Source of the DNA: Candidatus Gastranaerophilales bacterium
GTDB taxonomy: Bacteria; Cyanobacteriota; Vampirovibrionia; Gastranaerophilales; Gastranaerophilaceae
Length of the DNA: 40,025 nucleotides
Assembly (NCBI GenBank): GCA_944322865.1
Contig: CALUQJ010000008.1
Location: forward strand, 1-40,025
Direction of reading: 5' to 3'
A program made the position numbers and the translations under genes. Numbering within the stretch: position 1 is the first letter of the stretch; each line of letters opens with the position of its first letter. Below the pieces are notes generated by a model. It worked only from the letters and a program-made list of their open reading frames with translations, searched no databases and was not told where the DNA came from. Below are positions 2,147 through 25,965 of the stretch, piece by piece.

Positions 2147-2177
2147 TTGCATTTTATAATTTTTCTGTTACTATAAA
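2147..2177 (+). promoter_or_regulatory. candidate promoter of the rplJL unit
   Basis: TTGCAT at 2147-2152 and TATAAA at 2172-2177 are separated by 19 bp, and the L10 leader begins directly after. Spacing is longer than ideal and other AT-rich hexamers nearby (TATAAT at 2155) could serve instead, so the exact boxes are uncertain. Confidence 0.4.
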
Positions 2178-2180
2178 ATT

Positions 2181-2292
2181 ACAGCCGCAGACAGCAAGCG
2201 GGCTGGTGCAAGAAGAACAGCCTACCTGAAAGGTAAAAAGGCTTTTCAAATAATCAGCAGCCAACCCTTAAAACAACAGCTTGCCGAGGTTA
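2181..2292 (+). ncRNA. ribosomal protein L10 leader (rplJL autoregulatory mRNA element)
   Basis: The stretch ahead of rplJ contains the recognisable conserved blocks of the bacterial L10 leader: CCGCAGACAGCAAGCGG at the 5' side and the terminal block CTTGCCGAGGTT. Several short stems lie in between. In other bacteria the L10-(L12)4 complex binds this mRNA structure and represses its own operon. The position, about 140 nt upstream of rplJ in the same direction, fits. Boundaries are approximate. Confidence 0.85.
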
Positions 2293-2338
2293 CACAAAAA
2301 TTACTGATACATAAAAAGTCGAAATATATTATTGTGTA

Positions 2339-2376
2339 AGATTTTGCGGTTAAATACATAATGCAAAGTCTTTTTT
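2339..2376 (+). terminator. attenuator-type terminator between L10 leader and rplJ
   Basis: AGATTTTGC (2339-2347) pairs with GCAAAGTCT (2363-2371) with one G-U pair and a 15-nt loop, and runs into six T residues. It is a modest intrinsic terminator located after the L10 leader and before the rplJ start. This suggests that L10 binding tunes transcription into rplJL as well as, or instead of, translation. Confidence 0.5.
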
Positions 2377-2428
2377 GTATGTGTATTAAAACTCAGGTCG
2401 ATAAAACAATAAAAACAAGGAGCTTAAA

Positions 2429-17955: not shown

Positions 17956-17984
17956 TTGACAATTCAAAATATTTGAAGTATTTT
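17956..17984 (+). promoter_or_regulatory. promoter of membrane protein copy 1
   Basis: TTGACA (17956-17961), 17 bp, TATTTT (17979-17984). The spacer holds the dyad TTCAAAATATTTGAA. The -10 ends 6 nt before the ATG at 17991 and no Shine-Dalgarno exists, pointing to a leaderless mRNA. The same arrangement recurs 563 bp later. Confidence 0.7.
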
Positions 17985-17990
17985 AAATTT

Positions 17991-18377
17991 ATGAAGATTA
18001 ATGATATTTCGCATATGTTTAATTATAAGAAAATTATAGCTGCATTGCTAACAATAATTCAAACCGTTTTCCTATTGCTCTGGTGTACATATGGGTTTAT
18101 TATTTGGTTATTTTTGGTATCACCTATGTATGATTGTGAAAATGTTAGTAATCCCAATTTTTTTAGTGGATTATTTTCTACAATCAAATTAAGTTTATTT
18201 GCTGATATAGCATATTTCCCTGTACTTGTTGCAGGTATAATTATTTTAATTCTTCTTATTAAATATTTAAGAAATATCAAATTAACCAAAAAGGACTATA
18301 AGATATTTGTCATAGCCCTTTTGGTTAAAATATTAGCCATTCTGTATTGCTTCCATTGTATATTGCATATTTTTTGA
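17991..18377 (+). CDS. four-helix membrane protein, copy 1 (possible immunity protein)
   Basis: 128 residues from the ATG at 17991; a TTG 18 bp upstream lies inside the promoter and is rejected. About four membrane segments (residues about 15-45, 62-70, 74-92 and 104-126) separated by short charged loops (KYLRNIKLTKKDYK). Not recognised. A second copy follows 563 bp downstream, and a possible toxin gene is convergent with that copy. Small multi-helix membrane proteins in tandem copies beside a toxin-like gene are often immunity proteins, but this is inference. Near the 3' end an inverted repeat of about 16 bp (AACCAAAAAGG...CCTTTTGGTT) lies within the coding sequence. Confidence 0.75.
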   Translation: MKINDISHMFNYKKIIAALLTIIQTVFLLLWCTYGFIIWLFLVSPMYDCENVSNPNFFSGLFSTIKLSLFADIAYFPVLVAGIIILILLIKYLRNIKLTKKDYKIFVIALLVKILAILYCFHCILHIF

Positions 18378-18518: not shown

Positions 18519-18547
18519 TTGACAATTCAAAATATTTGAAGTATTTT
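18519..18547 (+). promoter_or_regulatory. promoter of membrane protein copy 2
   Basis: TTGACA, 17-bp spacer with the TTCAAAATATTTGAA dyad, TATTTT, and 6 nt to the ATG at 18554, identical to the copy 1 promoter. Each copy therefore has its own promoter. Confidence 0.7.
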
Positions 18548-18553
18548 AAATTT

Positions 18554-18949
18554 ATGAAGATTAATGATATTTCGCATATGTTTAATTATAAGAAAATTAT
18601 AGCTGCATTGCTAACAATAATTCAAACCGCTTTACTGTTGTACTGGTGTACGTATGGATTTATTATGTGGTTGTTTTTTGTATCATTTATATATGATTGT
18701 GAAAAGCTTAGTAATCCCGATTTTTTTAGTGGATTATTTTCTACAATCAAATTAAGTTTATTTGCTGATATCGTATATTTTCCTGTACTTGTTTCAGGTA
18801 TAATTATTTTAATTCTTCTTATTAAATATCTAAGAAATATCAAATTAACCCAAAAGGACTATAAGATATTTGTCATAGCCCTTTTGGTTAAAATATTAGC
18901 CTTTCTGTATTGCATATTTTTTAATAATATCCTTGAAATATTATATTAA
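18554..18949 (+). CDS. four-helix membrane protein, copy 2 (possible immunity protein)
   Basis: 131 residues, paralogue of the gene at 17991. The first 25 residues are identical. Replacements concentrate in the next 40 residues (for example TVFLLLWC versus TALLLYWC, LVSPMYDCENVSNPN versus FVSFIYDCEKLSNPD), and the following part is nearly identical again. A 16-bp deletion shifts the frame at the end, so the last residues read CIFFNNILEILY instead of CFHCILHIF. The stop codon overlaps the stop of the convergent 375-aa gene: both use the TTAA at 18946-18949. Confidence 0.75.
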   Translation: MKINDISHMFNYKKIIAALLTIIQTALLLYWCTYGFIMWLFFVSFIYDCEKLSNPDFFSGLFSTIKLSLFADIVYFPVLVSGIIILILLIKYLRNIKLTQKDYKIFVIALLVKILAFLYCIFFNNILEILY

Positions 18950-24639: not shown

Positions 24640-24673
24640 ATAAAAAGCAGACTTTTAAAAGTCTGCTTTTTAT
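24640..24673 (+). terminator. intrinsic terminator of nrdJ
   Basis: A perfect 34-bp palindrome (17 + 17, with GCAGACTTTT and AAAAGTCTGC at the core) flanked by A-runs and T-runs, 20 bp after the stop. Confidence 0.92.
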
Positions 24674-25285: not shown

Positions 25286-25319
25286 AAAAAGCCTCCGAAA
25301 GATAATCCGGAGGTTTTTT
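25286..25319 (+). terminator. intrinsic terminator after the 163-aa gene
   Basis: CCTCCG (25292-25297) and CGGAGG (25308-25313) form the stem, followed by six T. Confidence 0.88.
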
Positions 25320-25349
25320 GTAACAAATTGCCGGCATGGGGTTGAAAAA
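25320..25349 (+). repeat. 30-bp direct repeat, first copy
   Basis: Begins GTAACAAATTGCCGGCATGG and is repeated base for base at 25640-25669. It contains the palindrome TGCCGGCA and ends on the TTGAAA -35 box of the antisense RNA promoter, so it looks like a fixed upstream activation or binding site. Confidence 0.85.
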
Positions 25350-25370
25350 CTTTCCGACATACGTTATAAT
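25342..25370 (+). promoter_or_regulatory. promoter of structured RNA 1 (putative antitoxin)
   Basis: TTGAAA (25342-25347), 17 bp, TATAAT (25365-25370). The predicted start is at about 25377, exactly where the closing stem GAGGGCG begins. Confidence 0.8.
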
Positions 25371-25376
25371 GTAAAA

Positions 25377-25578
25377 GAGGGCGTACGGATTGCTACTCCG
25401 TACATAAAAGCCTCTGGGTGATTTTATTTAAGAGCTAGTAATATCAAAAGAATTATAACTAGCTCTTTTTCAGTAATACTGAAAATCACATTATCTCACC
25501 TCCTTTCTGAAAACAGTGATACCGATTTTCAGTCCGTGCTGCTCAGATATGGATGTGGAAAAAGAGGCTTTCGCCCTC
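25377..25578 (+). ncRNA. structured RNA 1, putative type I antitoxin
   Basis: About 200 nt. The 5' end GAGGGCG (25377-25383) pairs with CGCCCTC (25572-25578). A hairpin GTACGGA/TCCGTAC (25383-25403) and a stem GAGCTAGT/ACTAGCTC (25432-25465) follow. TTTTCAGT/ACTGAAAA comes next, then an unpaired CACCTCCTTTCT (25497-25508) and CTGAAAA/TTTTCAG. In the second copy the GAGCTAGT stem becomes GAACTAAT/ATTAGTTC, two compensatory pair changes. It is fully antisense to the 21-codon ORF at 25424-25489 and covers that ORF's Shine-Dalgarno. The antitoxin role is inferred from this layout. Ends are estimated. Confidence 0.65.
25424..25489 (-). CDS. 21-aa hydrophobic peptide, putative type I toxin copy 1
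   Basis: GTG start at 25489-25487 with the perfect Shine-Dalgarno AGAAAGGAGGTG 9 nt upstream. The peptide starts MIFSITEKEL, continues as an all-aliphatic run of about ten residues (V, I, L, A) and ends in Lys. The second copy at 25738-25803 keeps the same length: nine codons differ, five silently, the others S/C, V/I, A/V and K/H. Such a short membrane-spanning peptide under an antisense RNA is typical of type I toxins (Ibs, ShoB and Hok are examples of the class), but I do not know this sequence. The 5' leader can fold (CTGAAAA/TTTTCAG next to the Shine-Dalgarno), which would slow translation. A possible -10 box TATAAT lies at 25588-25583. After the stop, the hairpin 25383-25403 and a T-run resemble a terminator. 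Confidence 0.6.
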   Translation of the reverse strand: MIFSITEKELVIILLILLALK

Positions 25579-25639
25579 ATAAATTATACTAATCAAAAAT
25601 TAATTTTACTTCTTCATATATTTGGAGTAAATCATAAAT

Positions 25640-25669
25640 GTAACAAATTGCCGGCATGGGGTTGAAAAA
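25640..25669 (+). repeat. 30-bp direct repeat, second copy
   Basis: Identical to 25320-25349, 320 bp downstream, again ending on the TTGAAA of a promoter. Confidence 0.85.
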
Positions 25670-25690
25670 GGATAAGAAATAAGTTATAAT
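25662..25690 (+). promoter_or_regulatory. promoter of structured RNA 2 (putative antitoxin)
   Basis: TTGAAA (25662-25667), 17 bp, TATAAT (25685-25690). The spacer sequence is entirely different from copy 1, yet both boxes and their distance are kept, which argues for selection on the promoter. Confidence 0.82.
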
Positions 25691-25695
25691 AAAAG

Positions 25696-25893
25696 TAAGG
25701 GCAGGGATGCGGTTACATCCCATTGAAAGCCCCTTGTTTAGTGGAGAACTAATAATATCAAAAGGATTATTATTAGTTCTTTTTCAGTTATACAGAAAAT
25801 CACATTATCTCACCTCCTTTCTGAAAACAGTGATACCGATTTTCCGTCCGTGCTGCTCAGATATGGATGTGAAAAAAGAGGCTTTCGCCCTTA
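25696..25893 (+). ncRNA. structured RNA 2, putative type I antitoxin
   Basis: Second copy, about 198 nt. TAAGGGC (25696-25702) pairs with GCCCTTA (25887-25893). The first hairpin is GGGATG/CATCCC (25704-25721), unlike copy 1 in sequence but alike in position. The stem GAACTAAT/ATTAGTTC (25746-25779) covaries with copy 1. The block with the unpaired CACCTCCTTTCT (25811-25822) and about 95 nt around it is nearly identical to copy 1 (two differences). The variable 5' hairpin and the constant 3' half suggest a recognition part and a Shine-Dalgarno-masking part. Confidence 0.65.
25738..25803 (-). CDS. 21-aa hydrophobic peptide, putative type I toxin copy 2
   Basis: GTG start at 25803-25801 behind the same AGAAAGGAGGTG site as copy 1. 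It starts MIFCITEKEL, then an aliphatic run of about ten residues, ending in His. The overlapping ATGTGA at the start is conserved: an ATG at 25805-25803 is followed at once by TGA, and the GTG lies two bases further in. Upstream, -10-like hexamers lie at 25898-25906 on the minus strand. Downstream, the GGGATG/CATCCC hairpin and a T-rich tail (GCCCTTACTTTTATT) could terminate the transcript. The function is inferred from the layout. Confidence 0.6.
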   Translation of the reverse strand: MIFCITEKELIIILLILLVLH

Positions 25894-25965
25894 TGTGTTT
25901 ATAATATAAAAAAATTAATATTATCTCCTCATGTATTCGGAGTAGATAATCTATTTTGCTTGCTA
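25894..25965. other. AT-rich gap with conserved CTCC/GGAG hairpin
   Basis: CTCCTCATGTATTCGGAG at 25926-25943 corresponds to CTTCATATATTTGGAG after copy 1; both can pair at the ends. It probably belongs to the duplicated unit as its last part. Confidence 0.4.

Follow-up and report, generated by a model that had tools for sequence, protein, structure and literature searches.

The locus at ~25319–25638 and ~25639–25950 of a 40,025-nt stretch of DNA from Candidatus Gastranaerophilales (the window, meaning the whole stretch analysed) raises the question of what two tandem units are, each of which sets a promoter on the plus strand against a 21-codon open reading frame (ORF) on the minus strand. 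The initial annotation had described plus-strand promoters and GTG-initiated ORFs behind AGAAAGGAGGTG in the two repeats, and these elements are present in both units (Table 1), whose 158-nt blocks are 91% identical at a spacing of 314–320 nt. It had also read the layout as type I toxin–antitoxin-like, with Ibs/Sib as the analogue; strong comparative evidence supports the former, but the analogue has to be replaced, as end pairing in the style of AapA/IsoA fits better. In the reading preferred here, to which we assign a probability of about 0.7, each unit is a compact type I toxin–antitoxin-like module with a locked mRNA and an antisense RNA.

Table 1. Features of the two tandem units in the window, and examples of a leader loop in homologous units.
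Feature	Position	Strand	Remarks
Copy 1, antisense RNA promoter TTGAAA-17-TATAAT	25342..25370	+	11/12 matches
Copy 1, predicted antisense RNA	25377..25470	+	~94 nt; 5′ hairpin and terminator hairpin; ends predicted
Copy 1, putative antisense terminator	25430..25470	+	AAGAGCTAGT ... ACTAGCTCTT + TTTT; within the peptide ORF
Copy 1, ORF	25424..25489	-	21 codons, GTG start; MIFSITEKELVIILLILLALK
Copy 1, Shine–Dalgarno sequence (SD)	25497..25508	-	AGAAAGGAGGTG; predicted fold pairs SD with leader
Copy 1, conserved leader hairpin	25496..25548	-	Reaches SD; leader model R1 match, E 1.0e-9
Copy 1, predicted peptide mRNA	25375..25577	-	~203 nt; fold z -7.6
Copy 1, intrinsic terminator of mRNA	25372..25404	-	Also 5′ hairpin of antisense RNA
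Copy 1, mRNA -10-like TATAAT	25583..25588	-	-35 weak; sequence reading
Copy 2, antisense RNA promoter TTGAAA-17-TATAAT	25662..25690	+	11/12 matches
Copy 2, predicted antisense RNA	25697..25784	+	~88 nt
Copy 2, putative antisense terminator	25745-25757 / 25768-25780	+	Stem, then TTTTT
Copy 2, ORF	25738..25803	-	21 codons, GTG start; MIFCITEKELIIILLILLVLH
Copy 2, Shine–Dalgarno sequence	25811..25822	-	AGAAAGGAGGTG
Copy 2, conserved leader hairpin	25810..25862	-	Reaches SD; leader model match, E 1.7e-7
Copy 2, predicted peptide mRNA	25693..25896	-	~204 nt; ends paired; fold z -7.2
Leader loop CUnnAAA, examples	L006:1530-1582; L219:219-270

That the short ORF is translated into something selected for was already suggested by the nine codons that differ between the two copies, five silently and four by replacement (S/C, V/I, A/V and K/H), a count that was confirmed. 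A coding test was carried out on units found by DNA similarity alone (36 distinct core segments, 18 disjoint pairs), in which the similarity of the encoded proteins, for a given amount of nucleotide change, was compared with that under random change. The true frame passed clearly (z 6.3, 0/1000, no stops) and was the only one to do so, the other five frames lying between -2.8 and +2.4; the constraint on the peptide proposed from the window alone is thus borne out as coding selection. In a larger collection of 119 units, some of them chosen by a peptide motif, z was 17, with no in-frame stops, interchanging start codons (GTG in 62, ATG in 40, TTG in 17) and stop positions that vary in frame. 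Places chosen by SD and hairpin rather than by ORF had an open frame in nearly every genuine unit, and a check for relatives with stops or frameshifts beside a preserved RNA, which the initial annotation had named as evidence for a non-coding RNA only, did not overturn this result. Judged from these substitution patterns, the minus-strand ORF is under coding selection, and its product is typically a peptide of 21–25 aa with one hydrophobic stretch, within the size of less than 60 aa expected in a type I toxin–antitoxin system. One unit (L107, near 4468 on the plus strand) has an intact chassis and has apparently lost its start codon; it is possibly decaying. An overlapping minus-strand ORF of 29 aa upstream (25580-25491) is not conserved among relatives, so there is no leader peptide of the hok/mok kind.

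Both strands fold far beyond chance, the minus strand (z -7.6 and -7.2 for the two copies) better than the plus strand over the same span (-6.1 and -5.1). In the predicted folds of both window mRNAs, the two ends pair with each other and the leader with the SD; in copy 1, the ends pair at 25573-25578 with 25377-25382 (GAGGGC/GCCCTC), and also at 25564-25569 with 25409-25414. Because the flanks align poorly, RNAalifold did not recover the leader stem or the end pairing from the full alignment, and helices were therefore assessed by dealing their arms anew between units (2000 shuffles). By this measure, five helices are supported, with no shuffle in 2000 reaching the observed value: the hairpin at ORF codons 2-7 (z 7.6), the ORF-spanning stem (z 14.1), the leader stem directly before the SD (z 12.3), the inner 5′–3′ end pairing of the mRNA (z 11.5) and its 3′ terminator hairpin (z 14.6); these counts are not probabilities, because related units share ancestry. 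For the outermost four end pairs, which hardly vary, shuffling gives no support (z 1.7). For the two ORF helices, a fixed alignment contained 72 double-change cells, whereas shuffles gave 24.6 and slid controls no more than 12. Individual exchanges agree with these statistics: the compensatory stem pairs GAGCTAGT/ACTAGCTC and GAACTAAT/ATTAGTTC, reported earlier for the two window copies, were found there; among copies of L034, the end pairing changes from GGGC/GCCC to GGAC/GTCC; and the SD variant GGTGG is accompanied by CCACC in the leader in 13/18 cases as against 1/89 of the others, although these units may be related. The idea that the leader loop pairs with the beginning of the ORF suited window copy 1 only and was dropped.

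Which strand each stem serves can be read from its tolerated wobbles, since G-U pairs whereas its complement, A-C, does not. The ORF-spanning stem, written as mRNA, has 2 G-U against 24 A-C (control fraction 0.30), and is thus kept on the plus RNA, although silent third positions could explain part of this bias. The preference is the other way for the leader stem (32:8; control 0.46) and for the end pairing (51:10; control 0.65), both of which are kept on the mRNA. Sorted by strand in this way, the wobbles support transcripts from both. Together with the T run that follows it, the ORF stem reads as a terminator of the antisense RNA lying inside the ORF. As this terminator and a second hairpin both occupy codons, residues of the peptide covary through the RNA, at its start (F-S-I-T-E, F-T-I-S-E, F-A-I-S-E or F-C-I-T-E) and further on, where E/A near position 9 varies with A/V/T near position 19.

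These observations change the earlier picture of the plus-strand transcript, which had been put at about 200 nt and taken to overlap the ORF fully. With the covarying stem and the TTTTT behind it acting as a terminator, the plus RNA is predicted at ~90 nt, probably with two hairpins, starting beyond the 3′ end of the mRNA and ending within the ORF, which leaves the SD uncovered; the structured RNA of ~205 nt is, in the predicted folds, the minus-strand mRNA itself, with its 5′ and 3′ ends paired and its leader paired to the SD. At the level of sequence, the antisense RNA is complementary to the mRNA and has its own conserved promoter on the opposite strand, found in 98/109 homologous units. 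The two window copies are unlike in the 5′ hairpin of their predicted antisense RNAs. By contrast, the mRNA promoter is weak and variable, with no conserved motif at the -10-like box across homologous units, and this counts against the module. A plus transcript running past the ORF terminator would carry a copy of the 16S rRNA 3′ end, TCACCTCCTTTCT (25497-25508 and 25811-25822), which is simply the complement of the SD.

Relatives were searched, as had been proposed, with a covariance model of the leader and a profile of the peptide, and homologous units were found within the order. An initial DNA search gave matches in 21/59 genomes, counting the window's own; among the matches listed for the DNA pattern, most of the named records belong to metagenome-assembled genomes of Candidatus Gastranaerophilales and Melainabacteria, and some bins are probably misnamed. 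The peptide profile, built from 34 peptides, matched 119/383 genomes of the order Gastranaerophilales over 25 genera, with six copies in the window's own genome and up to nine units per genome; the matches listed all fall in one family of the order, and a phylum-wide sample gave none outside it. With the leader model, a second family of the order proved to have units as well, up to eight per genome, and a sample of the class yielded nothing beyond the order. Homologous units were thus found only in Candidatus Gastranaerophilales. A match in Sodalis (L118) lacks the chassis, and two pattern matches in viral contigs, without SD or chassis, look like chance. The window locus is adjoined by a small conserved gene and a glycosyltransferase, between which congeners carry one, two or three units; one genome, G005, has an empty site there (L256, G005:C21:17050-17750), with both flanking genes and only a terminator-like hairpin between them. 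Tandem arrangement, multiple copies and patchy presence of this kind are usual for type I modules. Elsewhere in the window, two ORFs for membrane proteins of 134 and 137 aa, very similar to each other, also stand in tandem (17973-18377 and 18536-18949), and a perfect 17-bp palindrome at 24640-24673 is probably a terminator after a 665-aa ribonucleotide reductase-like ORF.

The units of the second family (L219-L235, from G043, G047, G050, G052, G055 and G057) share leader, end pairing and antisense layout with the first family, and carry different peptides of about 25–42 aa, for example MKVKFALSERELLILVIVVLLMISKKDLAEILSLLTSI, MRVAVNKTDWFAIIVILLLLTATKKELVDILTLFLQK and MIQDKTEQALVILELILKIILELIK, some of which look amphipathic rather than purely hydrophobic. 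Two of these units, L230 and L235, have no ATG, GTG or TTG in the usual place and may start at CTG. The leader itself often carries a 7-nt loop, CUnnAAA, on the covarying stem directly before the SD: it occurs in 68/117 first-family leaders and also in the second-family leaders read, and with at least three closing pairs it is found in 73/142 distinct leaders, compared with 0.36 expected after shuffling. A second leader type lacks this loop, and the two window copies, including the anticodon-arm-like loop of copy 1, have imperfect versions. A CUnnAAA loop on a stem is shaped like an anticodon arm bearing A36-A37-A38, the element that tRNA isopentenyltransferases recognise (PMC7200024), and miaA is encoded in the genome. 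Motif and gene together raise the thought that a tRNA-modifying or tRNA-binding factor might gate translation through a functional mimic of the anticodon arm, a long shot; if true, such a mimic would link peptide release to how tRNAs are modified.

The closest known analogue is AapA/IsoA of Helicobacter, although the locus appears to be a separate family. In aapA3/IsoA3, a 225-nt mRNA with paired ends encodes 30 aa and faces an 80-nt antisense RNA (PMC6733600). Shared features are a compact chromosomal locus, an mRNA of ~200–225 nt with paired ends, an SD that is paired in the inert form, a short antisense RNA from the opposite strand, several copies per genome and a short peptide (30 aa for AapA, 21–25 aa here). 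The antisense promoter, by contrast, lies inside the toxin ORF in AapA/IsoA, where the -10 box of aapA3 has been mutated with the toxin amino acids kept (PMC6733600), and beyond the mRNA 3′ end here; the units described here differ further in the terminator inside the ORF and the conserved leader hairpin before the SD, and they belong to another phylum. Ibs/Sib shares the very short aliphatic peptide, the opposite-strand RNA and the tandem copies, but Sib pairs over the ribosome-binding site of ibs (PMC12390103), whereas in the present units the predicted antisense RNA ends within the ORF and the mRNA ends pair; the Rfam model SIB_RNA (RF00113) scored 15.1 bits against a gathering cut-off of 56. 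From the wider cyanobacterial phylum, MsoT1/MsoA1 of Microcystis aeruginosa is likewise type I-like, with a cis antisense RNA of two hairpins over the 3′ part and 3′ UTR of the toxin gene, but MsoT1 has 63 aa and two predicted membrane helices (PMC12390103) in place of 21–25 aa and one hydrophobic stretch, and the chassis is undescribed for it.

The peptide matched no family in Pfam or NCBIfam. In hok/sok, a stable toxin mRNA with a 5′–3′ fold-back is silenced by an antisense RNA; the present locus would share both properties, but is much smaller and has no Rfam match. At gathering score, Rfam returned only tRNA and a ribosomal protein L10 leader (RF00557, 50.8 bits; window 2167-2386, upstream of the L10 gene), the matches to RT-14 and SIB_RNA being below the cut-off. 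In the library searched, no paper on a system from Gastranaerophilales was found, and the candidate from the cyanobacterial phylum is the different 63-aa system. The units appear to form a new family of the type I-like kind, distinguished by the terminator inside the ORF and by exchangeable peptides on one chassis.

Comparison of the units' sequences shows that the ORF is coding, that two RNAs are structured, that the mRNA ends pair, that a promoter serves the antisense RNA and that its terminator lies inside the ORF; from these we infer expression and a cycle of locking, release, duplex decay and toxicity. The minus-strand mRNA (~205 nt), which would encode a hydrophobic peptide of 21–25 aa, is probably locked against translation at full length, its 5′ end paired with its 3′ end and a leader stretch with the SD. 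The antisense RNA (~90 nt) would be made from the strong conserved promoter right beyond the mRNA 3′ end, would extend through the 3′ UTR and over the greater part of the ORF, and would stop at the hairpin written in the ORF codons. As predicted, it leaves the SD uncovered, so silencing must go through duplex decay or refolding: pairing, probably seeded at the antisense 5′ hairpin, would mark the mRNA for degradation. Should antisense synthesis fail, 3′ trimming would free the mRNA for translation; the resulting peptide, most likely a toxin that inhibits growth, would act at the membrane. After the example of aapA3/IsoA3 (PMC6733600), an inert full-length mRNA, its antisense removal and a 3′-shortened translated form should be found.

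Toxicity of the hydrophobic peptide is suggested by analogy, and the comparative evidence bears on circuit and coding, not on effect. All of it would fit equally well with a small, benign membrane peptide under antisense regulation, which would be harmless at natural levels and have a physiological role, such as tuning a membrane enzyme during stress; non-toxic small membrane peptides connected with stress do exist, and the amphipathic character of some second-family peptides also points this way. We nevertheless consider a benign peptide rather unlikely: double locking through end and SD pairing, together with a dedicated antisense RNA, tandem duplication, patchy presence and the exchange of peptides on one chassis, suits a toxin better than a conserved physiological factor. 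Very improbable is a selfish repeat family that spreads by copying and whose peptide serves only its own maintenance. Units are multi-copy, in tandem, at several places per genome and missing from some relatives, as such a family would have it, but no transposase or terminal repeats were noticed around them, peptides and stems diverge under constraint, and a search of phage and plasmid collections and the PDB with the peptide gave no match, the viral-contig matches looking like chance only; the overlap with the toxin–antitoxin reading is real, since addiction modules are themselves partly selfish. That the plus RNA is the functional product, regulatory perhaps via TCACCTCCTTTCT, and the minus ORF fortuitous, has the slightest chance of all and is already largely refuted. 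In its favour are the good fold of the plus strand, a promoter conserved better than any other and the likeness of the SD's full antisense to the 3′ end of 16S rRNA. Against it stand coding selection in the minus frame, the interchange of start codons, ends that vary while the stop stays in frame, wobbles that preserve stems on the mRNA strand and the better fold of the minus strand.

Type I systems were known only from Proteobacteria, Firmicutes and Tenericutes until the Microcystis candidate of 2025 (PMC12390103). ORFs this short escape gene finders but are picked up by the peptide profile and the leader model built in this analysis. The overlap between the strands is unusual in that the terminator of one is written in the codons of the other, with amino acids that covary via RNA pairing, and one conserved RNA chassis bears interchangeable short peptides. 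If the units are type I modules, they would constitute a large family, with multiple copies per genome, from a gut lineage without a described example in the library searched.
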